Positions 5,268-63,380 of a DNA stretch of 64,000 nucleotides are shown here, in pieces. Each line of letters starts with the position of its first letter. Position 1 is the stretch's first letter. The translations under genes were made by a program, and so were the position numbers. This stretch comes from Rhodococcus sp. KBS0724 (lineage in GTDB: Bacteria; Actinomycetota; Actinomycetes; Mycobacteriales; Mycobacteriaceae): contig NZ_VCBX02000002.1 in the NCBI RefSeq assembly GCF_005938745.2, positions 372,001-436,000 on the forward strand. The letters are read 5' to 3'. The notes beneath the pieces were generated by a model. The model saw only the letters and a list, made by a program, of their open reading frames with translations. It was not told where the DNA came from and did not search any database.

Positions 5268-5325
5268 CGCAGAATCCTTTCTGCATAGGAAGAAATACTG
5301 GACGGGCGGCAACCCGTTTGGTCTC

Positions 5326-5480: not shown

Positions 5481-5960
5481 ATGGTGTCTAGCAATGAGAA
5501 ATGGAACGCCCCAATGAGCCGTCGAGTGATGCGTGGGTTTGACCCCGCGCGGCTTAGCCATGCCCGAGAGAGCAAAGGCTTTAGCCGTGCAGACCTGGCT
5601 CGACGCGCCGGAGTTGGAGGAGCAACGGTGCAGCAGTGGGAGACTGGCAATCGAAGCCCTCAGGTCGACACGCTCGCTTTGGTGGCACAGACGCTTGGGG
5701 TCCCAATGGGTGCACTTGTCGTGGTTCCGGAAGCGGAACGGTTTCCGGGCGATTGGCGCATCCTTCTTGGCCTCACTCAACCGCAGCTCGGCAAGATGAC
5801 CGGGATCAGCACTTCCATGATTGCTCGGATTGAGCGCGGTGAGGTCTTGTTGACTGATGACAGCGCTCGGAAATTGGCCGATGCTTTGGGAATCGGCGTT
5901 GGTGAATTGCAGGCCAGCTACGAGCGTGCGCGCACACGGCCGGCTGGCGTGCCTGCGTAG
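5481..5960 (+). CDS. Regulator with two XRE-type helix-turn-helix domains
   Basis: The 159-residue protein has two complete HTH_XRE units in tandem. The first (about residues 20-75) contains LARRAGVGGATVQQWETGNRSPQVDTL and the second (about 90-145) contains LTQPQLGKMTGISTSMIARIERGE. Each matches the Cro/CI family pattern, with an acidic/aromatic turn and a following leucine-rich helix. GAGGAGG lies a few bases before the ATG, a very strong ribosome binding site. The gene is transcribed away from the WhiB operon. It is likely a repressor of its own promoter and of a divergent or nearby operon. A second, degenerate HTH often supports pseudo-dimeric binding to an asymmetric operator; that is inference. 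Confidence 0.8.
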   Translation: MVSSNEKWNAPMSRRVMRGFDPARLSHARESKGFSRADLARRAGVGGATVQQWETGNRSPQVDTLALVAQTLGVPMGALVVVPEAERFPGDWRILLGLTQPQLGKMTGISTSMIARIERGEVLLTDDSARKLADALGIGVGELQASYERARTRPAGVPA

Positions 5961-46427: not shown

Positions 46428-49400
46428 GCTGGCCCGCCGAGTGCGTTTTTCGACGACGAGGAGTTCAGCGCCTCGAAGACGTGCGCGAGGTGCACGTAGT
46501 GGATCCAGCTCGAGCGCACCAACTCGACGTCGTCGGCCATCCGGATCATCCAGCGGCGCGCTTGATCCTGGTACGAGGTGTCGGTGTCTTCGTCGAGGGT
46601 GTCTTCGCCGCCGCTGCCCATTTCGGCGAGGAACTGCTCGAAGCCTTGCCCGGCAGGGAGTTTGAGCAGTTTCAGGGCGCCGGCGATCGCATGGGGGTCG
46701 CCTCCGACGTCGCCGACGAACACTTCGTAGGTCAGTGCGGTCTTGTCGTCGCTGCCGTCAAGTCCGAGGAAGTCGTCCGGGAGCTGCGAGCAGACGAGCG
46801 CGCGGAGCAGGTACTTGCGTGAGTCGCGTGCAATGCGCAGGTTCAGGGTGCGGCCGGCGCCGGTGGATTCGAGGTATTTGTTCTCATCCAGGAAAAGCAC
46901 CTTGCGTACATGGCGCGGCTTTTCGTAGACGAGACGGTTCGCCAGCCACGCGGCCATGTGCATCAGGGGTGCGGTCATCCGCTGTTGCGGAGTCCATTGC
47001 GAGGACGGTGTGCCTTCGGGCGGTAACTGCAGGCCGGGCATCGTCAGGATGGTGAGACGGATGTCGTTGTCGAAGGAATCGGCGCCGCTGCCGATCGTGC
47101 CTTCTTCGGGGAAGAGCACACGTGCTTCGGTGAGCCTGGACATCAATTCGAGCTGCTGATACAGCCCACTGGCGCAGGTCCTGACCGCTTGATCCGGGTT
47201 GTTCTCACTGATGGTCTCGATTGCGGCCAGCACTTCGCGGAGGTTGTGGTTGCTGTCGCCGCCGACCATGTTCGCCGCCAGATGCAGAACGGGTTCGGTG
47301 TGCTCTTGGTGTAGATGGCGTTCGGTGAGCATCATCTTCAGAACGGATACGGCGACCTCGACGCGTTCTGCTTCGGCGGCGCGCTTGTCGGCGTCGAACT
47401 TCGATTGCGCCGCTGCATGTGGATTGGAGTCGCGTGCGAATTCGGTGTTGGCGGTGTCGTATTCGGGGTCCTCGCGCCGGGGGTTGGTGATCACACGGTA
47501 CGGGTTCAGCGCTCCCGCGCGTGAGTCCCGACCTGTGAGTGCGTAGACGCGGGCGATATCGCGGAACTCCGGCAAAGATGCCAGCGCGGCAAGAGGTCCG
47601 GACGGGTCGAGAACGACGCCGTAAGCGCCGGCGCGCACCGCCTGATACACGATCATGCCGGCGAGAAACGTCTTGCCTGATCCAGGTACAGCGACGATCG
47701 GAGTCAGCCCCGACTTGTGCTTGCGTTCGTGGGCGGCGAACAGATCCCAGATCACCGGTCGCGGAGAGATCGATGATGTCTCACCGAGTACGACACCGCG
47801 CCGGTCACCGATGCGGTCGCTGACCGTGGCCATGCCGGCGGCGACAGCTTCGACGTCCATCCGGCGAGCATGGGCGATGTTCGCTTGCGGCTCGCCGGGA
47901 ATGAACTCGCGTAGCAGTTGGTACTGGCCGTGCTCGTGTTCGAGCGCGATGTGCGGGGAGTACATCTCTTGCAGAGCGGAGACCTTCTGCCGAACATCGT
48001 CAGGACTGGTGCCGACGACGGCGACGCGGTACCAGCCGGTGGTCCGCGTCGAGAGTCCTGAATGGTCCTCCTCGACATCGGAGATCACGTTCTGCGCGCG
48101 AGCATGCTGCTGCGCCAACTCTTTCGGCGGCACCTGATCGTGCTCAACGGTGTAGTGGTCGAACTGGCTCTCGATCTTCCCGGTGAGAGAGCGCATCTTG
48201 CGGATGGTCGATGCCTTGTCGTGCAGTTCGATTCGATCCGACCACTCCAGCGGCTCCCCAGAAGGGTCGCCGATGATCTGCCAGGGCAGCATCCGTTCAG
48301 GGATCGGCAACGGTGCCATGCGTCCGACCGTCAACACGATCACCACACCGGTGTAGGTGCGGCCGTCGACCACACCGGAGACTGTGGTGTAACCGTCGCC
48401 AGGGGTCAGGGACAGGTCGGTGAGATCTTCGAGGGCCGCGACGTCGGTCTCCTCCCAATCGCCACCGCCCGCGATCGCTCCACCCGCTTCCAGAGGGAGA
48501 CCGATCGTCGCGGAGCGCCGCAGCAGGTAATCGATCGCAGTCGTAGACGCGGGAACAGCTTTCGCGCCGCGACCCGACATGATCCGCTCCAACGAAGCGA
48601 GATGATCGGCGAGCGCCTTCTGCTCGCGCTCGAAGGCGTCGTCGGCCCACCGGTTCACCCACGTGCAGACCCCGCCCAACAAGGGCCAGTCGGCCGTGTA
48701 CCGCAGCGTTCGAGCAGTCCAATCCAAACCCCGCCCGAGTCCGGAACGCTCAGGTAGTTCGATGCCCCAGTAGCGGCCCTTCATAGTTGCGTTCGACCAC
48801 AACATCGCGTGCTGCTGACCGCGCAGGTAATCCGCCCACGACAGCGCGCCGGGCACATCAGGAATGGGTGTGGCCCAAACGTTGTGGTCGATCGCCCACT
48901 GCGTCACCGGGAACGGGGTGCGCACCACGCGGCGGTGCAGCTTGCGTACGCCTGCTTTCTGCAGGTTGGTCAGGATCATCGCTTCGTCCTGGATGAAGCG
49001 GCGTTGCTTACCGGTGGTGCGGAAATTCCAGGGTCCTTGCTGCTGCCAGAACCACGCCGTCGACGTTGTCGCGGTTCGGGTGATGTTGGCAGAAGTGCCG
49101 GTCAGTTTCAGATGGACGGCCCTGCGTTCGCGCTCCACCCACTTCCTCGCGGCATCCTTCTCGCGATCGGTCGCGGACTTGCGTGCCTTCTTCGTTGTCC
49201 GGCCGCGGCGACCACGACGCCGCATGACCTTCTCGGCGACCTGCTCGGGATCGGTGAACGGTGTCGGCTCGGTGTCCTCGTCGTAGTCGTCCTCGCCGTT
49301 GTCGTCGTAGGCCGGAACCGGTGTCGGGTCGACTTCGGACCACGCTTGTGCAGGACGGCGCGCACTCGACTGCGCAGCTGCCCACGACGGCGGTAGCGAG

Positions 49401-49477
49401 CCCGGAAGAATCACCGGAACCGGATCCTCGACCTTTGGGTCGAACAGTGCGGCAATGTCGTTGTCGGAGGCGGTCAT
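46424..49477 (-). CDS. VirB4-like conjugation ATPase
   Basis: The 1017-residue ATPase has Walker A VAVPGSGKT near residue 600 and a Walker B-like KVLFLDENKYL near 860, followed by FEQF...VFVGDVGGDPHAI and the C-terminal region. The N-terminal third (AARKWVERERRAVHLKLTGTSANI, then WQQQGPWNFRTTGKQRRFIQDEA) is typical of actinobacterial VirB4/TraC-like proteins in which an N-terminal domain meets the membrane proteins. It powers pilus/channel assembly together with the FtsK/TraB-like ATPase encoded divergently. Start ATG overlapping the previous gene (ATGA); longest gene in the window. Confidence 0.87.
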   Translation of the reverse strand: MTASDNDIAALFDPKVEDPVPVILPGSLPPSWAAAQSSARRPAQAWSEVDPTPVPAYDDNGEDDYDEDTEPTPFTDPEQVAEKVMRRRGRRGRTTKKARKSATDREKDAARKWVERERRAVHLKLTGTSANITRTATTSTAWFWQQQGPWNFRTTGKQRRFIQDEAMILTNLQKAGVRKLHRRVVRTPFPVTQWAIDHNVWATPIPDVPGALSWADYLRGQQHAMLWSNATMKGRYWGIELPERSGLGRGLDWTARTLRYTADWPLLGGVCTWVNRWADDAFEREQKALADHLASLERIMSGRGAKAVPASTTAIDYLLRRSATIGLPLEAGGAIAGGGDWEETDVAALEDLTDLSLTPGDGYTTVSGVVDGRTYTGVVIVLTVGRMAPLPIPERMLPWQIIGDPSGEPLEWSDRIELHDKASTIRKMRSLTGKIESQFDHYTVEHDQVPPKELAQQHARAQNVISDVEEDHSGLSTRTTGWYRVAVVGTSPDDVRQKVSALQEMYSPHIALEHEHGQYQLLREFIPGEPQANIAHARRMDVEAVAAGMATVSDRIGDRRGVVLGETSSISPRPVIWDLFAAHERKHKSGLTPIVAVPGSGKTFLAGMIVYQAVRAGAYGVVLDPSGPLAALASLPEFRDIARVYALTGRDSRAGALNPYRVITNPRREDPEYDTANTEFARDSNPHAAAQSKFDADKRAAEAERVEVAVSVLKMMLTERHLHQEHTEPVLHLAANMVGGDSNHNLREVLAAIETISENNPDQAVRTCASGLYQQLELMSRLTEARVLFPEEGTIGSGADSFDNDIRLTILTMPGLQLPPEGTPSSQWTPQQRMTAPLMHMAAWLANRLVYEKPRHVRKVLFLDENKYLESTGAGRTLNLRIARDSRKYLLRALVCSQLPDDFLGLDGSDDKTALTYEVFVGDVGGDPHAIAGALKLLKLPAGQGFEQFLAEMGSGGEDTLDEDTDTSYQDQARRWMIRMADDVELVRSSWIHYVHLAHVFEALNSSSSKNALGGPA

Positions 49478-49917: not shown

Positions 49918-50244
49918 CTAGGTGCTGATGCCGACGAGGCCGAGGATCCAGTTCCCGATCCCGGTGGCAGCAGATTCCGAGGTCGCGATCCCGAGATACG
50001 CCAGTCCGAACAGACCCAGGCCGCCGACCGTGAAGACTCTCGAGAGATTGCCTTTGAGTCCGCCGACCAGGACCACACACGCGAGTGCGATCAGGATCGT
50101 GAACACCACGTTGTCCTTGATCCACGCACGCAACCCGCCGGTGTTGACGTCCGTCGATTGCGCGAGAGTGACGACATCCGCAACGGCAGGTGGGTGCGCC
50201 GTCGCGACCGACAGGTCGATCACAGTGGAAGCGATAGAAAACAT
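49918..50244 (-). CDS. VirB2-like small membrane protein (possible pilin)
   Basis: The 108-residue protein has a signal-like start (MFSIASTVIDLSVATAHPP), a short Gln/Asp-rich part, and two hydrophobic helices (NVVFTILIALACVVLVGGL and VFTVGGLGLFGLAYLGIATS) separated by a short basic loop (KGNLSRV). This is the layout of VirB2-type pilins and of TrbC-like proteins. ATG with GGAGAG upstream. It is the first gene of the leftward conjugation operon; a GTTATCCACAGGCG box lies about 80 bp before its start. Cleavage and polymerisation are inferred. Confidence 0.65.
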   Translation of the reverse strand: MFSIASTVIDLSVATAHPPAVADVVTLAQSTDVNTGGLRAWIKDNVVFTILIALACVVLVGGLKGNLSRVFTVGGLGLFGLAYLGIATSESAATGIGNWILGLVGIST

Positions 50245-50322
50245 GAACACTCTCCAACAGGTTGAAAACCAGATCCCACGAATGTGGTTGCGCGGGAACA
50301 TAGAAGAATTGGTGCTTCGACT

Positions 50323-50342
50323 TCAAGGCGCCTGTGGATAAC
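50323..50342 (-). promoter_or_regulatory. Conjugation-regulon box, copy 1 (leftward)
   Basis: On the minus strand the 20 bases GTTATCCACAGGCGCCTTGA are identical to copy 2. The box points toward the leftward operon and ends about 80 bp before its first start. It contains TTATCCACA, a perfect match to the bacterial DnaA-box consensus (TTATNCACA). Role as an operator or DnaA site is inferred from position and conservation. Confidence 0.65.
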
Positions 50343-50344
50343 TT

Positions 50345-51377
50345 CTTCGATTCCCATGAGTGCACATCGGGTTCGGCGTTACTCCGTGCGCTGTGGTGGA
50401 CGAGTCATGCTCAACGCAAGGTTCTTCGGCTCGCGTATGTCGGTTTCTGTCGAGTGGTTGCGGGTCCTTCCATCGTTGCCGAGAGGGGTTTCGTCAACGT
50501 GGTGATGAAAGTCCTGATGGGTAGAGCAGTTGAGGGTGTGGACGTAGGTGGTCGCGCCGGGTCCCGAGCGTTGCGTCGACAGTGGTGGCAATGAGGCTGT
50601 CGATAGCCTTCCGGCATGGTGCCATCGAAGCCCTGCGGAAGGGCTTTGTCGCAGAAGTGGATTCGACCACTCAATTGCGGGTGAGATGAAGCGCGTCGCG
50701 AAGGACTGTGGAACGCCGCCATGAGTGAGCGAAATGTGGGGGTGTGGAAAAGAGGGAACTCATCGGTCCAGACGCCCGCGGAAGCTGTCATTCACGCACC
50801 AGCGTTGGCAGGTGTGAAGTGAGGTAGTTTCACGGGGTAGTTTTGCGGGGTGCCGAAATGGTGTGTGAAACGGGTGTATTCACCGTTCCCCCCTCCGGGG
50901 GTCACTGCCGTTTTCCGGCCCTCCGGGCCGGAAAACGGCAGTGTACTCATGAAAATTGCTCCGCGCCAACTTTTTTCGGTAACTGCTGTTCAGAGGGTTG
51001 CTTTCGGGTGTTGATCGCCGGACCAAGATCACGGCGCGAACAGTCGCCATCGGGGTGATCGAGAACCGATTCAGGCAGGGGTGAAAGGCGACTGACGAAG
51101 CTGCGTCTCGGGCCCGAAACTCGCGACCGCGGACGGTGCGCAGAGGTGTATTCGGCGCTTTGATTTCAGTGCCTCGCAATACCCCTCGAAGCACTCGAAT
51201 CAAGATCATCTCCGCCGCCGTTTCACCCCTTGTCGAGTAGTGGATTCCACGGTTCGCGACGGGTTTATCCAGTGCCACAATCGGTATCGACGAGAGCTGT
51301 CATCGACAGAGGTTCGGTGCTGTCAATCAGCATGCGGGGAACAGGCGTCAGCGCGTCGGCTGCAGGCTAGGAAAAAA
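50345..51377. other. 1-kb divergent intergenic region of the conjugation module (candidate origin or control region)
   Basis: No gene is supported between the two conjugation operons, bounded by the 20-bp inverted-repeat boxes. Inside is a perfect 19-bp hairpin (CACTGCCGTTTTCCGGCCC with loop TCC, 50903-50943) next to a second GC-rich one (CCCC-CTCC-GGGG, about 50888-50901), and a 7-bp stem AAGCCCT/AGGGCTT followed by TTTG (50628-50647). Such a block is a candidate for oriT, the replication origin or a large regulatory region. Confidence 0.5.
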
Positions 51378-51397
51378 GTTATCCACAGGCGCCTTGA
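51378..51397 (+). promoter_or_regulatory. Conjugation-regulon box, copy 2 (rightward)
   Basis: GTTATCCACAGGCGCCTTGA again, now pointing rightward and ending about 88 bp before the FtsK/TraB-like gene. With copy 1 it forms a perfect 20-bp inverted repeat around the intergenic region. Confidence 0.65.
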
Positions 51398-51485
51398 GAA
51401 ACTTTTCCCGACTCTGCGAAAGTGCTCCAACAACACACCCGGCGCGACCTGTAACGGGATTCGAATCGAGCGAAAGGAGCAGTCG

Positions 51486-53597
51486 ATGGGCAGAGGTCAG
51501 CACGACCCCCTCAAGGACTTCCTCATCGACCTCTTCAGCTCCGAGAAGACAACAGGACAGCCCGGCAAATCGGAGAAACCTGCGGTCGGCAAGTACAGCG
51601 CGATCGCGCCATTCATCATCATCGCAACAGCTTTCGCGTTCTACGCTCCACGAATTGTCGAGCTGACCGGGCAGACACCCGAAAGTCAGGGCGCTATCGC
51701 AGCCGTGGCGATTCACGGATACCGCTGGCTTCTCCTGCTCGCCACCCTCGCACTGATCGCACTCGACGTCGTGCGGTTCATCTCGCACCGTCACCGCGTT
51801 CGGCTCGATGCCCACGTACGACAAGCCACCCGGCACCTTCCAGCGAAGGTCACCGTCGGATTCCCGCCCGGTATCAGCGCGTTGCGCAGCGCCAAGATCA
51901 AACTTCCTCGCGGAGCGATCATCCGTCCGAAAGAGATGGACGAATTCACCAGTGCAGTACGTGCTTCCGTAAACCGGCGATCAGGCAAGTGGACCCACAC
52001 GGTTACTCATCAAGCGCACCGAGATCAGATCGTCATCACCCGTAAGCACGTGAAACCCGACACCCGCTCCGATCGCCACCGGGTCCTCGAACAGGTCCTC
52101 GTGGGCGGGCCGCTCAAGGACACGGCCGTCACTGTCGACTCGTACGACGACAACGGTTCCGAGACCGGCTACAAGATCACCTACAGCCAGTCGATGTCGA
52201 GCGGCGTGCACGGGTTCCAGCGCAAAATCGACGAGGCTCTCACCTCCCTCGCCGGAACCCACGAGTCAGGGCGCACCTGGGCGACGGAATGGTTCCCGTC
52301 CGAAGGTTTTCTTCTGATGACGTTGCGTGCTCCGCTGCCGACTCGCGTGGATCATCCGCTGGAGCTGGTCGACGAGAATCTGCGCCACCTTCCCTATGCG
52401 ACAGCGGAATCGGATCTGACCATGTTCTGGGACATTTCCACGAAATCGAACAAGCCGCATTGCCTGATCGTCGGCCCGACCGGCGGCGGCAAGACGTCGG
52501 TTATCCGCACACTGCTCACAGAAGCTGCGCGCCGCGGAATTCCGTTCCTGGGCGTCGATCCGAAAATGATCGAACTCGACGGACTCGAGGGGTATCCCGG
52601 TTGCGCTGCAATCGTCTACGACGCTGTCCGCTCGGCAATGCTGGTGCGCGCGCTGCACTGCGAGATGATGGCCCGCAATCACTACGTGCACGTGAAGAAG
52701 ATCGAGCCCTCGGAGCTTCCGCTTCTGATCACCGTGCTCGACGAATTCTTCATCCTCTCCGGCAAGTGGCAGCGACTGGCGAAGACAGGCGACGACGAGA
52801 CCCGCGAGATGCTCAAGGAACTCGATCCGCTCGGTGCATGGGCCGATCTCGCGGTGCTCGCACGATCCGCTGGTATCCGCTTGTTGCTTGGTGTGCAGCG
52901 TCCCGACGCGTCACTGTTCGGCGGCGCATCCGGTAACGCACGCGACAACTTCGGCACCCGAATTTCGCTCGGTAATCTTTCGCAGGACGGAGCGATGATG
53001 CTGTGGGGAGAGTCCCAAGTCGGCCGCGAAATCGACACCTCCGTTCCCGGTCGTGGTGTGGCATTGGGCAACGACGGCTCTCCCGTGGATGCGCAGATGT
53101 GGTGGACGCCGAACGTCGACCCCCACCCGAACAAGTGGAATCAGCTTTCGGACTCCGAGAAGGCGATCATCAACGGGCTCCGGCCACAGGTGGAACCGCA
53201 GATTGCGTTCTACTCGAAAGAGTTGCGCCAGTTCGTCGAATCCGAACGCTCGATGGCCACGACAGCGCGCGAACGCGGCTACGCCCCGGAGCCGACGCAA
53301 CTCGGCGAAGACCACACGGATCAGGCCGTTCCTGCCGCAGCCGTGGACGACGACGTCGATGCGATTCCGGCTCACTCGGTGACCGAAGGAATGACGATCC
53401 TCGTTACCGGCGAGGACGGAACCGAACACGAGGCAACCGTCTTCGCCGTGACCGTCATCCGCAACAAGGACACCGGCGATGTCACCGAAACCACGATCAC
53501 CGTGGGCGGCACCGGACGGGTGAAAAACCACATCACCTACGGGCCGCACGAAGTGGTGTTCCTACCTGAGCCGGACAAGGTCCTCGAGTCCGTGTGA
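51486..53597 (+). CDS. FtsK/SpoIIIE-type DNA translocase (TraB/TcpA-like coupling ATPase)
   Basis: The 703-residue protein has two N-terminal membrane helices (YSAIAPFIIIATAFAFYAPRI and GYRWLLLLATLALIALDVVRFI), an alpha-domain region and a C-terminal motor with Walker A VGPTGGGKT (near residue 335), Walker B LLITVLDEFF (near 420) and the VLARSAGIRLLLGVQRPDAS region of the FtsK family. The C-terminal 100 residues are an extra acidic and beta-rich part. Proteins of this group drive double-stranded DNA transfer in actinobacterial plasmids or act as coupling proteins of TcpA type. ATG preceded by GAAAGGAG. First gene of the rightward operon. Confidence 0.9.
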   Translation: MGRGQHDPLKDFLIDLFSSEKTTGQPGKSEKPAVGKYSAIAPFIIIATAFAFYAPRIVELTGQTPESQGAIAAVAIHGYRWLLLLATLALIALDVVRFISHRHRVRLDAHVRQATRHLPAKVTVGFPPGISALRSAKIKLPRGAIIRPKEMDEFTSAVRASVNRRSGKWTHTVTHQAHRDQIVITRKHVKPDTRSDRHRVLEQVLVGGPLKDTAVTVDSYDDNGSETGYKITYSQSMSSGVHGFQRKIDEALTSLAGTHESGRTWATEWFPSEGFLLMTLRAPLPTRVDHPLELVDENLRHLPYATAESDLTMFWDISTKSNKPHCLIVGPTGGGKTSVIRTLLTEAARRGIPFLGVDPKMIELDGLEGYPGCAAIVYDAVRSAMLVRALHCEMMARNHYVHVKKIEPSELPLLITVLDEFFILSGKWQRLAKTGDDETREMLKELDPLGAWADLAVLARSAGIRLLLGVQRPDASLFGGASGNARDNFGTRISLGNLSQDGAMMLWGESQVGREIDTSVPGRGVALGNDGSPVDAQMWWTPNVDPHPNKWNQLSDSEKAIINGLRPQVEPQIAFYSKELRQFVESERSMATTARERGYAPEPTQLGEDHTDQAVPAAAVDDDVDAIPAHSVTEGMTILVTGEDGTEHEATVFAVTVIRNKDTGDVTETTITVGGTGRVKNHITYGPHEVVFLPEPDKVLESV

Positions 53598-53655
53598 CCC
53601 CCTGAACGCTTTTACCCCCGAACCCTCGAAACACCACAAGAAAGGTCCTATCGCC

Positions 53656-54012
53656 ATGGCTCGTCGTATCTCCCAGTCGATCACCCCCACCACCGAGGAC
53701 ATCAAGTTACTGCGTGGTCCCTTCGCACCGACCAAGGGCGGCGGGGATCCAGTCATCACCGCACTGCGCAAGGTCCTCAAAGACGGCGTCCCGACGTGGC
53801 TCGCCAAGCTCAGCGAAGAGCAGGAGTTGACTCAGCCGCGCCTCGACGAGATCAAAAGTGCCGTCGCGACCCGCCGCCAGATCATCGAGGTTCTACCCGA
53901 AGGCAAGGCACGAGAGGACGCCCTGGCGGCACTCGACAAAGCAGTCACCATCGTCTCGGAGATGGACAACGAACTCTCCGGCGTCGCTGCATTCAGCGGA
54001 ACGAACGCCTGA
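53656..54012 (+). CDS. Hypothetical helical protein (118 aa)
   Basis: A small cytoplasmic protein of mostly helical, charged composition (WLAKLSEEQELTQPRLDEIKSAVATRRQIIEVLPEGKAREDALAALDKAVTIV) placed between the FtsK-like and ParA-like genes. No family is recognised. AAAGG lies upstream of the ATG, and its stop shares two bases with the next start (TGATG-type overlap), so the two are coupled. A role as an adaptor or DNA-binding partner of the ATPases is plausible but unproved. Confidence 0.6.
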   Translation: MARRISQSITPTTEDIKLLRGPFAPTKGGGDPVITALRKVLKDGVPTWLAKLSEEQELTQPRLDEIKSAVATRRQIIEVLPEGKAREDALAALDKAVTIVSEMDNELSGVAAFSGTNA

Positions 54013-55526
54013 TGTCCGCCCTTGCCATCGAGATCACCGGCGAGCGGACCGCCGTCGCGCGCGGGGCAGGGGCCGAAGAGGTGGAACTGACCGCCGACAA
54101 GGGACAGTCGATCCACGCTGTGATTGCTGCGTACAGCCGCAAGTATTCAGCTGATGCAGGTGCACCGGTAGAGGTCGTCGTGAACGAAGCAGGACGCACG
54201 AATTACCTCACCGTCACCCCTGACGGGAATGTCTCGCGGTCGTTGCCGACAGGGCCGATCGTCGCAGCGGCTGCTGAGGCGGAAGTTCCGCAGGTCGATG
54301 CTGCACCGGAACCGGTCACGATGTCCGTCACCGCCACGTCGCAGCAGTCGGACGTAGCCGAGGAACTAGCGGGCGAGCCGGAAGAAGGTCCGGTAGATGT
54401 TGCACCGGAACCGGTCACGATGTCCGTGGCCCCCACCGGCCACCTGCCGGTTTCCGCCCCCGACGCAGTGCGGCGGGAAGGCAACGCGCAGCGGCCGCGC
54501 CCACCAGTCCCGTGGCAGCGTCCCAACCCCGATACAAGCGCCCGTCGGTCACAGGCAAACGCCTCCACACCAAGCACGCGTCCCGCGATGTCGGTACTCG
54601 CTGCTCCCGAGATCACGCCCGGATCAAACGAACCCGCGCGCACAGGTATTCGGGGTCGACTCAATGCCGTTCTGAACCTGGGACTGGCACCGAAACTAGA
54701 GTCCGCCGAGATGCGTCAACGCGCCGCAATCGCTGCGATCACCGGTCCGATTCCGGGGTTCTCGATCGTGACAGTGGCCAACCCGAAAGGGGGTGTCGGC
54801 AAGACCCCGATCGCAGTCGGATTGAACGCTGTCATCGCTCAGCATCGGGGAGCGGGAAGCACGGTCTGCGCGGATGTTGCAGAGGTCGGGGGCAGTCTCG
54901 CTGACCGCGTCTCCGTTCCACCGCGCGCCGGTCAGGATGTACTCGCACTAGTTGCCGCGCAGGCCGCAGCACCAGGAAGTATCCGTCCTTCCGAGCTGTC
55001 GCGGTTCCTGGCACGTCAGCCAGGCGGTGAAGACGTCGTGGCCGGCACTTTCTACGGATTCGACGGTGCCGCCCTGGGATACGACGACGTCGAGTCGTTG
55101 GCCACTGTCCTGTCCGAGCATCGCGAGATTCTCATCGCCGATACCGGCAACAACAGGTTGGCCGGGAGTTGGCAGTGGGCGACCTCGAACGCGAACGTCC
55201 TCGTCGTTCCAGTGCCATTGCGCCGGGATGCCGCCGCTGCCGCGCACCGGATGCTGCTCGACCTCGCTGCTACCGCGGGATCACACATCCTGGCCCGCAC
55301 GATCGTCGTTATTACCGACGGGCCAGGTGATGCTCCGATGGTCGAGATCGAGGCCGTCGATGCGTTTCTCGACGTCGGTGTCCATTCGGTTCGTCGGATG
55401 CCGTTCGAGCCGTTGTTCGCGTCGGGAGAGCGGATCGCGTTCTCCCAGCTTCGCTCGACGACCACCGAATCCCTGACTGTCGTTGCCTCGACCGTCATCG
55501 ACCTGATCGCCCACGCCGCGCTCTGA
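54012..55526 (+). CDS. ParA/MinD-type ATPase with a long N-terminal extension
   Basis: The C-terminal half is a ParA-type ATPase with deviant Walker A NPKGGVGKTP (near residue 258; the family's Thr/Ser after GKT is Pro here), then VCADVAEVGGSLADRV and EILIADTGNNRLAGSW, where Walker B-like DTG follows. The N-terminal 230 residues are a globular start (SALAIEITGERTAVARGAGAEEVEL) and a disordered part with a repeated APEPVTMSV motif. In conjugation modules such proteins position the machinery or, in the partition role, segregate the plasmid; the place within the transfer operon favours the former. The loss of the small residue after GKT may slow hydrolysis. Confidence 0.75.
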   Translation: MSALAIEITGERTAVARGAGAEEVELTADKGQSIHAVIAAYSRKYSADAGAPVEVVVNEAGRTNYLTVTPDGNVSRSLPTGPIVAAAAEAEVPQVDAAPEPVTMSVTATSQQSDVAEELAGEPEEGPVDVAPEPVTMSVAPTGHLPVSAPDAVRREGNAQRPRPPVPWQRPNPDTSARRSQANASTPSTRPAMSVLAAPEITPGSNEPARTGIRGRLNAVLNLGLAPKLESAEMRQRAAIAAITGPIPGFSIVTVANPKGGVGKTPIAVGLNAVIAQHRGAGSTVCADVAEVGGSLADRVSVPPRAGQDVLALVAAQAAAPGSIRPSELSRFLARQPGGEDVVAGTFYGFDGAALGYDDVESLATVLSEHREILIADTGNNRLAGSWQWATSNANVLVVPVPLRRDAAAAAHRMLLDLAATAGSHILARTIVVITDGPGDAPMVEIEAVDAFLDVGVHSVRRMPFEPLFASGERIAFSQLRSTTTESLTVVASTVIDLIAHAAL

Positions 55527-55602
55527 CCCACTGTCGTGCGGCACTGCCGTTCGACGTGCGTATCGGCCTCCACCAGTAGTTTCCTCATCGAAAGGCATCA
55601 CT

Positions 55603-56820
55603 ATGAGTATCGACATCACCGCGGGCAACCTAGCATCGCGGCGTGCACAGCAGGGTGTTCGGCATCGCCGCCGCAGTGCCGCGCGTCAGGTCACTGTCGC
55701 TGTTGTCGCTAGCGCAGCGGTCGTGGCCGGCATCGCCTTCGCGCCTTCCGCAACGGCAGCACCGGGACAGGCCGGCATCACCGACGGCGGGGGACAGGCA
55801 GGTATCTCACAGGGCGGCGGACAGTCCGGTGTGACCACTGAAACTCCCGCGCCGGCTCCGCCGCAGCCCGCGCCGACCTACTGGGTCGAACCGCCCGCGC
55901 AGTACCAGAACATCACCTACCAGCGGCTGGCGAACTTCGACTACAACACCAACACCTACACAGGTCAGTCCACCAACTACGACGCCACACCGATCGATTA
56001 CAGCCAGCTCCATCTCCCCGGCCCGGCCCCGATCATCGCGCCGATCATCGCCCCGCGCGATACCCTCCGCTTCGGCACATTCCATATCGCGCAGCCGAAC
56101 TGGGTTTCCGATGCAGACCTCGAACGGACCAACAACACCACTGCCGTTGTCGAGTCGATGGTCGCGACGTTCTGGCATTCGACCGGTGTTCCCGTGGACA
56201 AGGCAAGCCGCGAGTCCGCAGCGCAGGTCGCCGGCGCTGCCGGCGGCGCATTGAGCGGTGGGCTAGCGCTCGCAGCACCGTTCGCGACAGGCGGTGCGCT
56301 GATCGGCGGCACCATCGGCGGCAATATCGGCATGGGCTTGGGTAACGTCTTCGTCCCCGGTATCGGTTGGGTGGCAGGCGGATTGGCCGGTACAGGCGCA
56401 GGTGCGGGTATCGGTGCACTGGCACTAGGTGTTCCGGCTTTCCTCACGGGCGCAGTCGGCGGCGGAATCGGTGGATTCGTCGCGGCCACCGCATACGGTG
56501 CCGGCGAACTCGGAGAACCCGTCGACATCGAGATCCCGGACGTCGACCAGCCCGCTGTGACAGCGCAGACACAGAACGTCCTCACCGAGTGGGAGAACTC
56601 CGGACCGGTCGGGCAGTTCGCAGCTAACACAGTCCGCGACACCGTTGCCGCCGCTCCTGCAATCGATGCTCAGGTCCGCGACTTCGTGGGAGCGCAGCCC
56701 GGCGGTCAGCAGATTATCGAGCAGGTCGACTCAGCCCTGACGGACTATTTCCAGAACGCCTCACCGGGTCTGGCATCCACGCTGATCAGCGAAGCAATCG
56801 GCGGCGGCGCACAGGCATAA
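55603..56820 (+). CDS. Secreted glycine-zipper protein of the transfer operon (405 aa)
   Basis: A long signal peptide (QVTVAVVASAAVVAGIAFAPSATAAPGQ) is followed by imperfect repeats (GQAGITDGGG, GQAGISQGGG, GQSGVTTE) and a Tyr/Asn-rich part (PPAQYQNITYQRLANFDYNTN). A roughly 100-residue glycine-zipper hydrophobic region follows (AGAAGGALSGGLALAAPFATGG, then GGTIGGNIGMGLGNVF... GAVGGGIGGFVAATAYG), and a helical end. Gly-zipper regions form membrane-spanning pores or oligomers. It could be a surface or channel component; I know of no characterised equivalent. AAAGG precedes the ATG. Confidence 0.6.
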   Translation: MSIDITAGNLASRRAQQGVRHRRRSAARQVTVAVVASAAVVAGIAFAPSATAAPGQAGITDGGGQAGISQGGGQSGVTTETPAPAPPQPAPTYWVEPPAQYQNITYQRLANFDYNTNTYTGQSTNYDATPIDYSQLHLPGPAPIIAPIIAPRDTLRFGTFHIAQPNWVSDADLERTNNTTAVVESMVATFWHSTGVPVDKASRESAAQVAGAAGGALSGGLALAAPFATGGALIGGTIGGNIGMGLGNVFVPGIGWVAGGLAGTGAGAGIGALALGVPAFLTGAVGGGIGGFVAATAYGAGELGEPVDIEIPDVDQPAVTAQTQNVLTEWENSGPVGQFAANTVRDTVAAAPAIDAQVRDFVGAQPGGQQIIEQVDSALTDYFQNASPGLASTLISEAIGGGAQA

Positions 56821-56919
56821 CCCACAGCAACGCATAGCTCGGTCGGGGCGGGCGGCATACCTGCCGTCCGCCCCGACCTGCCACTGGCAATGACAACGAC
56901 GAAAGGCGAGTGCGCCGAC

Positions 56920-57645
56920 ATGAAGTCGATCCTGAGCACCAAGACCACAAGGCATCCGGCAGTGATCGATACGCTCGGCGGCGCACCTGCCGGGGCACCG
57001 AAAGCCGCTCGACCCGCAACCGGCTCACCGAAAACCTCCAAGGCCCCGAAAGCCACCAAGGCGCCGAAGCCCCCGAGGGCACCGAAAGCACCACGCTCAC
57101 CGAAGGACGCGCCGCCGCGGCGCCCCTACCTACTGCGATACGCGGCAGCATTACTGCTGGTTGTGGCACTACTCGGCTGGTTCCTGCTGCGCGTGTTTTC
57201 CGGATCCGACACCTTTAACCCGGTGATCGCTCAGAGCGACGAGGTAGCTCCCACATCGATGCCGGCCCTGGCGGTCACCCCGCCGGCAGTCGCCACCGAA
57301 CCAGTTGCCGACCCCAGTGCCTGCCGCACTGACCAGGGCGATCAGAAGACCGGCGCGGGCGTTATCGCAGCCTTCGAACATGCCTACTACATCACCCGCT
57401 CCGCAGACGCGGTCCGAGCGCTGGCCACCCCCGACACCTCGCTACCTCTTGCGGACAAGATTCAAGCTGGAATCGACTCCGTTCCCGTAGGAACCACGCA
57501 TTGCGTGCGCATCACTGCGGTCACGTCCGGTGTTTACTCCGTCGTTCTCGCGGAAATGCGTCCCGGAATTGCCCCCGAGCAGTACCCACAGACGATCACC
57601 ACCAAGGACATCGACGGCCGTTGGTTCGTCGACAGCATCAGCTGA
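56920..57645 (+). CDS. Bitopic membrane protein with NTF2/VirB8-like domain
   Basis: A basic Lys/Pro/Ala-rich cytoplasmic tail (SPKTSKAPKATKAPKPPRAP) precedes one membrane helix (YAAALLLVVALLGWFLLRVF) and an outer domain of about 110 residues (GVIAAFEHAYYITRSADAVRALATPD...THCVRITAVTSGVYSVVLAEMRPG...DGRWFVDSI), typical for NTF2-like conjugation proteins. The tail could bind DNA or the ATPases. An in-frame ATG ten codons upstream is possible, but AAAGG is positioned for either. It is the third NTF2-like candidate in the module. Confidence 0.6.
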   Translation: MKSILSTKTTRHPAVIDTLGGAPAGAPKAARPATGSPKTSKAPKATKAPKPPRAPKAPRSPKDAPPRRPYLLRYAAALLLVVALLGWFLLRVFSGSDTFNPVIAQSDEVAPTSMPALAVTPPAVATEPVADPSACRTDQGDQKTGAGVIAAFEHAYYITRSADAVRALATPDTSLPLADKIQAGIDSVPVGTTHCVRITAVTSGVYSVVLAEMRPGIAPEQYPQTITTKDIDGRWFVDSIS

Positions 57646-57690
57646 TCCACCACCGCGACGACATTCCTTTTCAGAGAGACGAAAACTCCA

Positions 57691-58212
57691 ATGAACCACT
57701 CAGCCAAGCGAACCCGACGATCATTCGCTGTCGCCGCCATCGGGGTACTCGCCGCGTTGACCGCGTGTGGAAGCGGTGACAGTCGCGCCGCTACCGGTGT
57801 ATCCGCCTCCAGAAGTGGCACGATCGTCACCGACTCGACCGACGATCTCGGTTCCATCATCATCGGCTGGGGCGAAAAGCGCTCCGACACCGAGATCACC
57901 ACCCCGAAACCCGAGGACATCACCGCCCGCTGCACCGGCACAGGCGAGAACCTCGTCGTGGACATCTCGGCACCGAACGGCTGGAAGATCAAGGCATTTA
58001 ACCCGTCCCAAGTTCTTACCGTCGAGAACACCGAGCAGGACCTGTCCGGAGACATCGACACAACAAACCAATTCCTCGAAGCCCTGCACTCGATCGACTG
58101 GTCGAACCCTGACCAGGTCGACATCGCGGCCACCGCTGATGCACCGGCCGACTGGAACTCGTCCTACGGGCAAGGACGTGTCTATCTGTCCCTGCACGTC
58201 GACTGCACCTGA
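57691..58212 (+). CDS. Lipoprotein (173 aa)
   Basis: The signal ends with LTAC (lipobox), placing the mature 145-residue protein on the outside of the membrane. It has a compact beta-rich core (TAQCTGTGENLVVDISAPNGWKIKAFNPSQVLTVENTEQDL-like sequence in the middle) and a Cys near the end (LHVDCT) that could pair with TARCTG. No enzyme motif is seen. The ATG follows the VirB8-like gene by 45 bp. A channel-associated lipoprotein (VirB7-like role) is possible. Confidence 0.65.
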   Translation: MNHSAKRTRRSFAVAAIGVLAALTACGSGDSRAATGVSASRSGTIVTDSTDDLGSIIIGWGEKRSDTEITTPKPEDITARCTGTGENLVVDISAPNGWKIKAFNPSQVLTVENTEQDLSGDIDTTNQFLEALHSIDWSNPDQVDIAATADAPADWNSSYGQGRVYLSLHVDCT

Positions 58213-58258
58213 TCGGTGGGAATCGACAACTAACGTCATGACCCAATGTCAACGGAGA

Positions 58259-58272
58259 GTTATCCACAGGCG
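58259..58272 (+). promoter_or_regulatory. Conjugation-regulon box, copy 3 (rightward)
   Basis: GTTATCCACAGGCG matches the first 14 bases of copies 1 and 2, in the direction of the cutinase-like gene whose start is about 120 bp further on. It falls between two co-directional genes, implying an internal promoter. Confidence 0.6.
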
Positions 58273-58392
58273 GGTTGATGCGGCGCGTCAGATACGTCAC
58301 TGTGTGCGCTCACCTGAAAGGTGGGCGCGGTTGACGGGACATCGGCGGTGCACACCGGAAGGTGCATTGTCCCTTTGGTAGATGAGGTGCAC

Positions 58393-60390
58393 ATGGCGCT
58401 CCCACGTCCGAAAGCTCGCCGCGCGGTCACCCTGTTGGTGATTGCCAGCGTCGCCACAAGTTCGGTCGCACTCACCGCTCCTGCGATTGCCCATGCGGCG
58501 CCGACCACGTGTGCAGCGACGTTCAATCTGTTCATTCCCGGCACCTGGGAAACGACCGAAGATGCTGACCCTTCAGCGCCGGTCGGCATGCTCAAACCCG
58601 TTGCCGATGCCCTCAAGAGCGCGCATGGCAGCGACGCCGAGATTTACACGCTGCCGTACATGGCGCGCGCATTCGATAACGGCCACACCTACGCAGACAG
58701 CAAAGCCGACGCTCTCACCAAATCGAAGCAGATCTTGTCAAAGATTGAGAATGCTTGCCCGAGCACCAAATTCACCATCATCGGTTACTCGCAGGGCGCG
58801 GACGCTGCCGGTGACCTCGCGTCCGAGATCGGGAACGGCAAGGGTGCGGTCGATGCTGGTCAAGTTCTCGCAGTCGGTCTGCTCGCTGATCCTGGTGCCG
58901 GAACGAAAGGCTCTGCGACGGTCGGCCCGCGCACTTCGGGCCACGGTATCGCCGACCCGCGCCCACAGGGGATGGGTTCGCTCTCTGGCCGCGTGGCCTC
59001 GATCTGCGATCCAGGAGACCTGTATTGCTCGATCGAGAAGGGCTCGAGCCCGATACTCGGTTCGCTCGGCTCGATCCTGACAAAGAGCCCCAGCGGCGCC
59101 GCGACCGACACGGTGGCCGGCGGGAACAGTCGACTCGCCACCGCGATGACGTCGGATTTCTCCGGCTCAGATCTGCCTGCGCTGGCGGCGAACGTTGCCA
59201 CGCTCGGGAAGCGGCTCTCCGAGCCGGCCGTCGACATCAAACAGGTAGCGGTAGCCGCATCATCGATCGCGAAGACCCTCGCGCCATTGGCGGACCTCCT
59301 CGACTCGGGAGCGGCGAACCCGCAAGCGAACGGCCAACTCGCGGCCGCACCGGTTGGTACGGCCGAGTACAACGCGTCCGAAGTCCTCACCAGGGCGGGG
59401 CAATCCGATCTCACTGCAGCCCTCGATACCGCCACGAAACTCGCAGACACCGCGAACAGGCTCACCGGCCGTGACGGCGGTGACTCTCTGCGCTTGCCGT
59501 CGACCTCGGCGGAGGTGCAGACCCTGACCAGGGCCGCAGAGTCTCTCGGCGTGCAGGTCGCACCACTGGCATCGACCCCCTCCGATGCGATCACCTCGGC
59601 CACCAGCGTGCTGTCGGTACTCAAACCGACGGTGGTGGTCAATCAGGTTCTCAATGTCGCCACCGGTATCACCTCGCTCGACATGCCCGGCATCCTCGAG
59701 AATCTGACTGTGCTGCCGCAGAGGGTCGCCGCGCTCGACGCGCGCGGTGCTCACGAGATCGCGGGTGAGCTCAATAATCAGTTCTCACCGTTGATCACGA
59801 TGGCTGCAGCTGTTGATCTGACATGGGTCTCGCAGGTGCTTTCGGTCATCCCCGACCCCTCCGGTGCTACTCAGATCGCGGCACTCGTCGCGTCGATCCT
59901 CGCAAACGTTGACGTGATCAAGTTGGCGAACATCGTCGGGCAGATCCAGGAGATCGCCTGGGCTGCTGTCGAAAAGCTTCTACCTCCACTGGGGAAGCTG
60001 CCTGATCCGCTCGGCGCAGCCGCAGCCATGACGGGTCTCGTTCCGGTTGGCCTGGATTTGGCGTCGGTGGCGATGAACATGCTCTCCGGTAAGGCCACCA
60101 AGACCCCGCCGGCACTGATGGGTAAGCAGACGAACGCGGTCTCCACGAGCATCACCACCGCGGCGGAGAACCTGGATTTGCCGCAACTGTCGGACTCGTT
60201 GGTGAAGTTGTCGCAGTCGCAAGAGGCAGAGGACCTCGCCTCCTTGGTCGGCGAAGGACTGCGCGCTGCAGACTTTTTCGCCTCCGGTGCTCATACCAAC
60301 TACAACTCACTCGTCGTCGACAACGCCGGACGCAGCGCCATTGTGTGGCTCTCGGACTGGCTCAATCTCCAGATCGGACGTGCCGTATGA
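58393..60390 (+). CDS. Secreted cutinase-like protein with a long C-terminal region
   Basis: A signal peptide (AVTLLVIASVATSSVALTAPAIAHA) precedes a cutinase/alpha-beta-hydrolase domain with the nucleophile in IGYSQGADAAGD (Ser133) and an acid in VASICDPGDLYC (Asp206 or 209). The His that normally follows about 12-15 residues later in H..Y is not there: the text continues SIEKGSSPILGSLG. About 430 further residues form an Ala/Leu/Val-rich helical region not found in ordinary cutinases (usual length 200-250). Cutinase-like proteins act on esters of the mycolate cell envelope and occur in conjugative regions of rhodococcal plasmids. ATG with GAGG upstream. Confidence 0.75.
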   Translation: MALPRPKARRAVTLLVIASVATSSVALTAPAIAHAAPTTCAATFNLFIPGTWETTEDADPSAPVGMLKPVADALKSAHGSDAEIYTLPYMARAFDNGHTYADSKADALTKSKQILSKIENACPSTKFTIIGYSQGADAAGDLASEIGNGKGAVDAGQVLAVGLLADPGAGTKGSATVGPRTSGHGIADPRPQGMGSLSGRVASICDPGDLYCSIEKGSSPILGSLGSILTKSPSGAATDTVAGGNSRLATAMTSDFSGSDLPALAANVATLGKRLSEPAVDIKQVAVAASSIAKTLAPLADLLDSGAANPQANGQLAAAPVGTAEYNASEVLTRAGQSDLTAALDTATKLADTANRLTGRDGGDSLRLPSTSAEVQTLTRAAESLGVQVAPLASTPSDAITSATSVLSVLKPTVVVNQVLNVATGITSLDMPGILENLTVLPQRVAALDARGAHEIAGELNNQFSPLITMAAAVDLTWVSQVLSVIPDPSGATQIAALVASILANVDVIKLANIVGQIQEIAWAAVEKLLPPLGKLPDPLGAAAAMTGLVPVGLDLASVAMNMLSGKATKTPPALMGKQTNAVSTSITTAAENLDLPQLSDSLVKLSQSQEAEDLASLVGEGLRAADFFASGAHTNYNSLVVDNAGRSAIVWLSDWLNLQIGRAV

Positions 60391-60845
60391 GTCCCCGAGC
60401 CCACAACCCCGCTGCCCGATGGACCTCGTGCGAGAAGTGCGGTCACCGCGGCTATCACACACGCGGTGATGCGAAGGCAGTTCGCAAACGCCACCACGGC
60501 ACCAAAGGGATGGCCGTGTTCTCCTGCCCCCACACCAAGGGCTTGTTTCACGTCGGACACCGGCCGAACGCGTTGAGCAGCGGGGAGATTGATCGCAACC
60601 TGCTACGAGTGCAGGCCCTGAAATCGGACACCGCCGCAGAAAGCTTTCGAGTCGCGCCGTTCACGACATGCCCTGCATCGGCGGTGTCATCGTCTGAATC
60701 TCACTCCGGCCGGACCCTCGCAGCCGAGCCCATGGTCGCAACCACCGATGCCCGCCGACTGGAACGCACCCGACGGGTGCGCACCGCACCTCGGTGTCCC
60801 TGCACCTCGACCGCATCCGATCAGAATAAGGAAACGACAGAATGA
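60387..60845 (+). CDS. Small zinc-ribbon-like protein (152 aa)
   Basis: The N-terminal 50 residues hold WTSCEKCGHRGYHTRGDAKAVRKRHHGTKGMAVFSCPHTKGLFHVGH: a CxxC pair, then C and two His residues in the order of a small zinc-binding fold. The rest is Ser/Thr/Arg-rich and possibly disordered. The start ATG overlaps the cutinase-like gene stop (ATGA), and its own stop overlaps the next ATG in the same way. Similar short CxxC...C..H proteins of unknown function are common in actinobacterial accessory DNA; I know no role. Confidence 0.65.
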   Translation: MSPRAHNPAARWTSCEKCGHRGYHTRGDAKAVRKRHHGTKGMAVFSCPHTKGLFHVGHRPNALSSGEIDRNLLRVQALKSDTAAESFRVAPFTTCPASAVSSSESHSGRTLAAEPMVATTDARRLERTRRVRTAPRCPCTSTASDQNKETTE

Positions 60846-61762
60846 ACTCCCCGAACTTCGATGACACGGAACATCATGCCCACCTGCACAATTCGCTTCC
60901 CGAGAAAAGTGTCGCTGCCTGCGGGCAGGCCGAGTACTCCGAGAACACGTGCGAGAGATTAGTGCCCCACGCCTTCACCGTGCTGCCGGGCGACGAGGGA
61001 TCGCCCGTGGTCATTCATGTTCCGCATTCCTCGCGCCTGATCCCGCCCGATATCCGCGCCGACCTGATGCTCACCGACGAGGAACTTGCCGAAGAGTTGG
61101 ACGAGGCCACCGACACCGCCACCGACGAGATCGCACTTATCGCCCTGGCCCACGTCCGTCTGCGGCCCACGATAGTGATCAACCACCTCTCACGCCTGGT
61201 CATTGACCCGGAACGGTTCCCCGACGGCGACCCGGCTGAGGCGTTCGGCCGCGGCGCCGTCTACACCCGGACCTGCTCCGGGGCGCCGCTGCGCGCCGAC
61301 CCGTACTCATCTCGGGCGGAACTGATCGACGCCTATTTCCGTCCCTACGCCGACGCCGTCACCACCGCAGTCGAGAACAGGTTGAACGCTTGCGGGCAGG
61401 CGATCGTCATCGACCTGCACTCGTACCCGGAGAAGCCGTCCGCGTTCGAAGACCCTGCCGCGCCGCGGCCACCGTTGTGCATCGGCACCGACCCCCAGCA
61501 CACCCCGCCATGGTTGATCGGCGCTGCCCGTGGCGCTTTCACGTCCCTCGGCGAGATTTCCGAGAACACGCCCTACAGCGGAACCTATGTGCCACTGCAG
61601 CACTACGGCACCGATGCCCGGGTGTCGTCGGTGATGATCGAACTGCGCCGCGACACCTACCTGACCGATCCAGTCGCACCGCACCCCGAACGCATCGCGC
61701 AGCTCGGCCGCGACCTCGCTGCCCTCATCGATGCAGTCAGCGACCGAGCCGCCGATGTGTAA
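60842..61762 (+). CDS. N-formylglutamate amidohydrolase-like protein
   Basis: Family landmarks are present: VVIHVPHSSRLIPPDI near residue 57, INHLSRLVIDPERFPDG, GRGAVYTRT, VIDLHSYPEKPS and SSVMIELRRDTYL. These are the zinc-site and substrate-binding motifs of N-formylglutamate amidohydrolase. It is 306 residues, slightly longer than usual because of an N-terminal tail. Its presence inside a transfer operon, coupled on both sides by overlaps, is odd for a histidine-degradation enzyme. The fold may be used here for another amide, perhaps in the cell wall. Confidence 0.8.
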   Translation: MNSPNFDDTEHHAHLHNSLPEKSVAACGQAEYSENTCERLVPHAFTVLPGDEGSPVVIHVPHSSRLIPPDIRADLMLTDEELAEELDEATDTATDEIALIALAHVRLRPTIVINHLSRLVIDPERFPDGDPAEAFGRGAVYTRTCSGAPLRADPYSSRAELIDAYFRPYADAVTTAVENRLNACGQAIVIDLHSYPEKPSAFEDPAAPRPPLCIGTDPQHTPPWLIGAARGAFTSLGEISENTPYSGTYVPLQHYGTDARVSSVMIELRRDTYLTDPVAPHPERIAQLGRDLAALIDAVSDRAADV

Positions 61763-63020: not shown

Positions 63021-63380
63021 GTGGCCGAAATATTTATTCGCCAACTTATCGACGATCTCGACGGAAAACCGATCGACACCGGATTGGGACACGAAGTCAC
63101 CTTCGCCTATCAGGGCATCGACTACCGCATCGATCTCAGGCCGACTAATGCCGACAAGATCGAAGCGGCGTTCGCCCCGTACATTAAGGCGGCGGAGAAG
63201 GTCTCCTCTTCCGGCAAAGCCCGTTCGAAAACGCAGACTGCGACCAAGGCATCTGGATCCGGTCGATCAGCCGAGCAACTGAAAGCAATTCGGGACTGGG
63301 CCGGCAATAACGGCTTCGACGTCTCCCCACGTGGGCGGATCAAAGCCGATGTCATCGACGCTTTCGACGCCGCACATTGA
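63021..63380 (+). CDS. lsr2: Lsr2-family nucleoid-associated protein
   Basis: The 119-residue protein is a plasmid-encoded Lsr2: the oligomerisation domain ([55 protein letters not shown]), a basic linker and the C-terminal DNA-binding helix region ([35 protein letters not shown]) carrying SPRGRI in place of the RGR AT-hook-like motif of Lsr2. GTG start with GAGGA upstream. It would bind AT-rich DNA and silence foreign or plasmid genes, including perhaps the conjugation operons. Confidence 0.92.

Follow-up and report, generated by a model that had tools for sequence, protein, structure and literature searches.

Introduction

In the transfer-activator regulons of plasmids, for instance those of AcaCD of IncC plasmids and of TraJ, one operator class is found at several transfer promoters. 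On plasmid NAH7, the plasmid's own ParB activates transfer genes via parS(NAH) (PMC12421886). According to a review of promoters regulated by DnaA, this protein can activate when bound at the high-affinity boxes of nrdAB and may contact the beta subunit of RNA polymerase (PMC8203912); the string "conjugat" is absent from that review. Among rhodococcal plasmids, the accessible portions of two papers name a TraB translocase, pVAPN_0320, for pVAPN (PMC5434932) and the transfer genes of PR4 (PMC4676930), and describe no promoter or operator for modules of this type. Here, we analyse a box shared by three promoters in a 64,000-nucleotide stretch of Rhodococcus sp. KBS0724 (positions 372,001 to 436,000 of contig NZ_VCBX02000002.1; hereafter the window), which is part of a 490,908-bp replicon, contig C2, and carries a conjugation module and a cutinase gene.

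We propose that these boxes form one oriented regulatory site common to the three promoters of a transfer regulon, which comprises pilin/VirB4-like secretion genes, an FtsK-like coupling protein and a cutinase. Each site would be bipartite and immediately followed by a promoter that has a TTG -35 element and a 17- to 18-bp spacer. The distal half, the 10-mer GTTATCCACA, would most likely be bound by the host's own DnaA, while the proximal half, the 6 to 8 bases before the -35 element, is specific to the plasmid lineage and would probably be read by a plasmid-encoded factor.

Compared with the AcaCD and TraJ regulons, the class of box here changes between plasmid lineages while the genes of the regulon stay, and the activator gene is putative. 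As at the DnaA-regulated promoters of nrdAB, dnaA and others (PMC8203912), DnaA boxes lie in the promoter region, but here there is only one per promoter, it is 6 to 7 bases before the -35 element, and it is on a plasmid. The likeness to NAH7 (PMC12421886) lies in a DNA-binding protein of replicon maintenance and a repeated site near transfer genes; however, the reader there is a plasmid ParB in proteobacteria, whereas the conserved half here matches the box of the chromosomal initiator in an actinobacterium. The plasmids pVAPN94-14 and pNSL1 share the divergent VirB4-like/FtsK-like module with the window, and pNSL1 the cutinase as well, but both have another class of box.

The shared box and its predicted promoters

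As the first-pass annotation had claimed, the window holds three exact copies of a 14-mer, at 50329-50342 on the minus strand and at 51378-51391 and 58259-58272 on the plus strand. The first two extend to 20 identical bases (50323-50342 and 51378-51397), and distances of 78, 88 and 120 bp to the gene starts at 50244, 51486 and 58393 were recovered with the starts that are backed by relatives; the third copy matches the 20-bp unit at 18/20 positions. Each box is asymmetric and points toward its gene. The 13-mer TTATCCACAGGCG occurs at only these three sites in the whole 7.25-Mb genome, with no occurrence of the reversed control pattern. When three mismatches were allowed, a scan of the window gave 5 matches where 5.26 would be expected, which leaves the exact copies as the only remarkable ones. 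All three boxes contain TTATCCACA, the 9-mer annotated as a perfect DnaA box, which it is against the DnaA-box consensus. The extent of the shared box had to be corrected from its relatives: the true unit is GTTATCCACA followed by 6 to 7 bases and then the TTG of the -35 element, and the GGCG that follows the 10-mer is confined to close relatives of the window.

The distal half GTTATCCACAG of box 1, which includes TTATCCACA and is kept in relatives, lies at 50332..50342 on the minus strand; five bases after it comes the putative -35 element of the pilin/secretion operon, TTGAAG (50321..50326, minus), and, across an 18-bp spacer, the putative -10 element TATGTT (50297..50302, minus). On the plus strand, GTTATCCACAG of box 2 (51378..51388) precedes the putative -35 TTGAGA (51394..51399) and -10 GAAAGT (51418..51423) of the FtsK/coupling-protein operon, again with 18 bp between them, and GTTATCCACAG of box 3 (58259..58269, plus) precedes the putative -35 TTGATG (58275..58280, plus) and, 17 bp further on, -10 CACTGT (58298..58303, plus) of the cutinase promoter. 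Across the window and its relatives, 47 of 53 upstream regions fit a TTG -35/NANNNT -10 geometry at 17 or 18 bp (42 at 18 and 5 at 17), while every other spacer from 12 to 24 fits at most 3 of the 53; the six remaining regions look similar, but their -10 elements fall outside the search pattern. The predicted promoters are of the housekeeping type in their TTG, their NANNNT and their near-fixed spacing, and we infer that the three box-bearing sites are promoters.

An assignment of the -10 hexamer to -12 to -7 would put the distal half at roughly -53 to -43, a usual place for an activator that touches RNA polymerase. Because the distal half would be so placed and the proximal half adjoins the -35 element, the arrangement suggests activation rather than repression, although it would also allow a repressor. 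The near-fixed spacing could alternatively mean that an alternative sigma factor reads one long promoter including the box. However, the -10 and -35 hexamers at the pilin promoters are ordinary ones, TANNNT and TTGA or TTGG respectively, and the gap between the 10-mer and TTG is 6 bases in some cases and 7 in others, making such a factor very unlikely.

Conservation of the box in related plasmids

The divergent region between the secretion and coupling-protein units matched related DNA in 63 plasmid records. We compared 11 plasmid regions, 8 of them chosen for spread among the 40 records listed and 3 taken from a second search, together with all 16 genome contigs that had an FtsK alignment. 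With the distant plasmid pRWAY01 (L069) set apart, there were 27 modules including the window: 12 with the 10-mer (class A), 6 of class B, 8 of class C and 1 from Nocardia (class D), classes B, C and D being sorted by eye. Both divergent promoters could be placed in 26 modules, the FtsK start having not been located in L065.

The exact 10-mer GTTATCCACA was found at both promoters in 12/26 modules, at neither in 14/26, and at a single promoter in none. The first-pass annotation had proposed looking for its motif in homologous modules, and the outcome is divided: the motif is there in the 12, while the 14 have another sequence, again common to their promoters, at the same promoter position. In the classes other than A, the best match to the 10-mer near the -35 element has 3 to 6 mismatches; over all 53 promoters, the 10-mer there is either exact or differs at 3 positions or more. 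Classes B and C and the Nocardia module (L056) each have their own shared box at this place (by eye in part), and pNSL1 has its own box at all three promoters. The 21.6-kb locus of pRWAY01 has exactly three copies of a long box, GACACGCCCGA..GCGTGCGGGGGTC, one before each unit. These sites, at 8911 (minus), 9237 (plus) and 19135 (plus), bear no relation to the DnaA box. That the three units have a regulatory site in common is well supported, since the 10-mer recurs in 12/26 modules and a different shared sequence takes its place in the other 14, and the case for a regulon of three promoters is strong.

A box that is particular to each lineage, asymmetric and directed at the gene is also what one would expect if a single plasmid-encoded regulator read the whole 20 bp, the likeness to a DnaA box being accidental and the other classes being sites of its diverged versions. 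Nevertheless, the distal 10 bp are unchanged in class-A modules whose FtsK is as little as 54% identical to that of the window, while one class B and two class C modules with FtsK 74-75% identical have different boxes. A single co-evolving reader is disfavoured because the distal half is fixed across distant FtsK proteins and changed among close ones. Moreover, the module proteins scanned with Pfam yielded no HTH-type domain (an Lsr2 gene adjoins the module). We regard a single regulator as a serious possibility, but one that we would rather doubt than accept.

In the FtsK tree, the 12 class-A rows fall on one side of a single branch, opposite the class B and C rows, and plasmid 3 of PD630 (L067) is sister to B plus C. 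This placement of class A and L067 suggests an old DnaA box that the lineage leading to B and C has lost, but the root is uncertain, since both the outgroup and the Nocardia row have long branches.

Two halves of the site

The bipartite structure of the box is apparent from how its parts vary. A set of 30 class-A promoters, some of them near copies, gave 24 distinct strings. The base before the 10-mer is A in 29, and the gap from the 10-mer to TTG measures 7 bases in 17 and 6 in 13, with 12 gap forms. The 8 bp before the -35 element agree at 0.84 within a module, compared with 0.58 for other modules of the same class and 0.33 for other classes (permutation p 5e-5, the smallest possible). The upstream control values are 0.27, 0.26 and 0.28; within a module, two stretches further upstream agree at 0.27 and 0.26, not exceeding the agreement seen between modules (p 0.56 and 0.79). 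A hand-thinned set of 18 modules gave the same picture for the box. From this agreement and the counts of the 10-mer, it appears that the proximal halves of one plasmid change together, and that the distal half is either kept whole or missing. The comparison shows, at the level of sequence, the membership of the regulon, the position and orientation of the box, its all-or-none distal half and its concerted proximal drift.

Genes of the regulon and the cutinase promoters

The minus-strand unit begins with a gene for a pilin-like small membrane protein of 108 aa (49918..50244, minus) and includes a VirB4-like ATPase (46424-49477, minus), and the plus-strand unit starts with a coupling-protein-like gene with an FtsK/SpoIIIE domain (703 aa; 51486..53597, plus). 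Boxes do stand before three units, as annotated, but the third had also been taken for a conjugation unit, and it contains no recognised transfer gene: it encodes a cutinase-family protein of 665 aa (58393..60390, plus), a small basic zinc-ribbon-like open reading frame (60345-60845, plus) with homologues in the other three complete plasmids, and then an N-formylglutamate amidohydrolase (60842-61762). The cutinase is similar to Culp6, below the cut-off of that family.

There are nine cutinase genes in the sequences compared, two each on C2 and pUSK13_2 and one each on PD630 plasmid 3, pNSL1, L007, L008 and pRWAY01, and all nine are preceded by the box of their own plasmid: the exact 10-mer in 7/7 cases on class-A plasmids, a class-C box (by eye) in pNSL1 and the long box in pRWAY01. 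The second cutinase of C2 (L027; 124377-126377) was found because a fourth GTTATCCACA, at 124291 and hence outside the window, precedes it; it is 52% identical to the cutinase of the window and has TTGTCG-18-GACACT after its box, by eye. The cutinase box lies 23 kb from the nearer divergent promoter on pUSK13_2 and 33 kb from it on PD630 plasmid 3.

These unlinked copies bear on another explanation, in which the box is a cis-site for replication, partition or transfer, flanking, for example, an origin of transfer, and its placement at promoters is secondary. Boxes 1 and 2 are indeed inverted around a conserved hairpin and a core resembling oriT. However, the cutinase copies far from the divergent region combine the same box with an unchanged -35/-10 geometry, and box orientation and spacing track the promoter, so we consider this explanation highly improbable. 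The hairpin (50902-50944) and the following AAAATTGC..GCGCCAAC..TTTC, together 50902..50979 with no strand assigned, lie at about the centre of the divergent region. The hairpin, CACTsCC..GGsAGTG, is present in 25 of 28 modules, and the following core, AAATTGC..GCGCCAAC..ATTTC, is less strict. Together they look like an origin of transfer or, alternatively, a two-way terminator.

No GTTATCCACA was found in the 260 bases upstream of the N-formylglutamate amidohydrolase copies found. By eye, pNSL1 (L100) has a class-C-like sequence at 6834 (minus), with TTGGTC-18-GACAAT, about 150 bases before its N-formylglutamate amidohydrolase. On pUSK13_2, a DUF2637 gene and two genes weakly similar to the telomere proteins Tap and Tpg (below the cut-off) lie before a cutinase (L096, 39565-43402), and C2 has, near 146-148 kb, homologues of the PD630 counterparts of these DUF2637, Tap-like and Tpg-like genes.

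Specificity across genomes

The pattern GTTATCCACAGN{4,8}TTGA has 19 matches, 3 of them the window's own, in 9 of 28 genomes of the genus (own genome included), with none for the reversed control, and 18 of the 19 precede a pilin, FtsK or cutinase sequence. The orphan box (L035; G010 C4:112914) comes with a promoter-like stretch and has no pilin, FtsK or cutinase sequence downstream. Over 301 genomes of the family, the N7 form of the pattern gave 24 matches in 13 genomes, against none for the reversed pattern; 21 are in the genus, 12 already known and 9 new. All nine new matches precede pilin, FtsK or cutinase sequence, that of two of them, in G005, matching FtsK only in part. The three matches in other genera precede no such sequence and are chance-like. 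As one would expect of an operator, the box is common to several transfer promoters and near-absent elsewhere.

The two boxes in G005 (L110 at C1:12746 and L114 at C1:7792048) precede FtsK-like sequence matched only from residue 150, with 44-46% identity. Located near the contig start and 7.79 Mb in, they are possibly relics at chromosome ends.

DnaA as a candidate reader

The host genome has one match to Bac_DnaA_C, at C1:1273-1470, which we took as dnaA; this sole match is chromosomal, and no plasmid-borne DnaA-like DNA-binding domain was found in the genome at E 1e-3. The 10-mer GTTATCCACA occurs 20 times in the genome, compared with 4 times for the reversed pattern. Fifteen copies are chromosomal, 9 of which lie within 0.5 Mb of the dnaA end, including one just after dnaA (C1:1739). 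Owing to this excess and to the crowding near the dnaA end, the 10-mer is probably a DnaA box of this host. When preceded by another base, TTATCCACA occurs 7 times (10 for the reversed control), and the variant TTGTCCACA occurs 45 times (30 for the reversed control).

That DnaA reads the box at the transfer promoters is plausible but unproven; it is indirectly supported by the perfect 9-mer, by the all-or-none conservation, by the presence of the 10-mer near the dnaA end and by the single DnaA domain. A second, plasmid-encoded factor would have to exist alongside it. We hold tentatively, at slightly below an even chance, that the box is an activator site of the transfer regulon with one half for the host DnaA and another specific to the plasmid. 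It is also possible, although we would not yet lean towards it, that DnaA directly gates the dispersed regulon of secretion channel, coupling protein and envelope esterase through one frozen box per promoter, so that mating competence would be timed to the initiation state of the host, and that sister lineages lost this host input and kept the plasmid-specific half.

Several points weigh against these proposals. The modules compared include near copies, and 11 of the 53 promoters were anchored by hand. Since class A is defined by the 10-mer, its invariance is partly a matter of definition, and the fairer measure is the all-or-none count, for which loci were chosen by FtsK. Agreement within modules peaks at the box and is not wholly confined to it, because the stretch from -35 to -10 also agrees slightly better within a module (0.41 versus 0.37 and 0.32, p 0.00045), and a downstream stretch agrees at 0.35, against 0.35 and 0.32 (p 0.04). 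The p value of 8e-5 for the crowding near the dnaA end takes close pairs of sites as independent and uses distances chosen afterwards. The variant TTGTCCACA is found near the -35 element at none of the 53 promoters, though a DnaA site should tolerate it, and for a protein that acts cooperatively, a single DnaA box at each promoter is a small number. Finally, 14/26 modules and pRWAY01 have no DnaA box and yet share a box between their promoters, so DnaA is not needed for this design.

Candidate plasmid-encoded readers

If a plasmid-encoded factor reads the proximal half, a candidate might be expected among the genes of the plasmid, and the first-pass annotation had named an HTH protein and Lsr2. 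The former is a tandem HTH_3 regulator of the plasmid backbone, located beside the replication genes (5514..5957, plus). Its two HTH_3 domains would fit a bipartite, asymmetric site, and homologues of it are present in each of the four complete plasmids under comparison as well as in 278 plasmid records. However, L004 and L005 have identical proximal halves and FtsK proteins 94% identical, while their HTH proteins are only 55% identical, with residues differing in the recognition helices (judged by eye). In addition, no box-like 18-mer within 3 mismatches precedes the gene, and homologues are also found in plasmids of Streptomyces, Gordonia and Mycobacterium, beyond the genera in which the module was read. 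We consider it unlikely that this protein, strongly different between two plasmids with identical boxes and hence not co-inherited with the box, is the reader.

Lsr2 (63021-63380) fares no better, as it has no match at E 1e-3 in pUSK13_2, which has the same box, or in pNSL1, which has another; both of these plasmids are complete and have all three units. Matches to it were found on C2, L062, L068 and, at 33%, PD630 plasmid 3. The ParA-like protein of the FtsK operon was also rejected as a DNA-binding regulator, given that Pfam finds no HTH in it and that its middle is gap-rich and poorly conserved.

Adjoining the tandem-HTH gene is a rep-side protein (4569-5312, minus) with CxxC pairs and a C-terminal C..C-X2-C-X5-C recalling WhiB. 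It has homologues in the other three complete plasmids, and the Pfam WhiB match is below the cut-off (E 0.026, in the pNSL1 copy only). In the four complete plasmids, a scan with an exact 7-base seed and at most 3 mismatches in 18 found no box-like sequence before HTH or rep genes; stray places with 3 mismatches were at 29476, 253587 and 381294 on C2 and at 85757 on pNSL1.

Implications

The literature accessible to us in part holds no description that we found of how the transfer genes of large rhodococcal plasmids are switched on. A search of titles and the beginnings of abstracts, outside which most subscription journals lie, returned nothing that we recognised on a DnaA box or a shared operator at conjugation promoters, a silence that counts as weak evidence that the finding is new. 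What the comparison yields is a small regulon, delimited by its promoters, and a link between a cutinase-family gene and conjugation in plasmids that carry these genes unlinked. The combination of channel, coupling protein and cutinase suggests that mating machinery and envelope remodelling may be switched on together. The box can also be divided, in a way open to testing, into one half matching the box of the host initiator and another that drifts and is specific to the plasmid. If DnaA does read the former, plasmid transfer would be linked directly to the cycle of chromosomal initiation.

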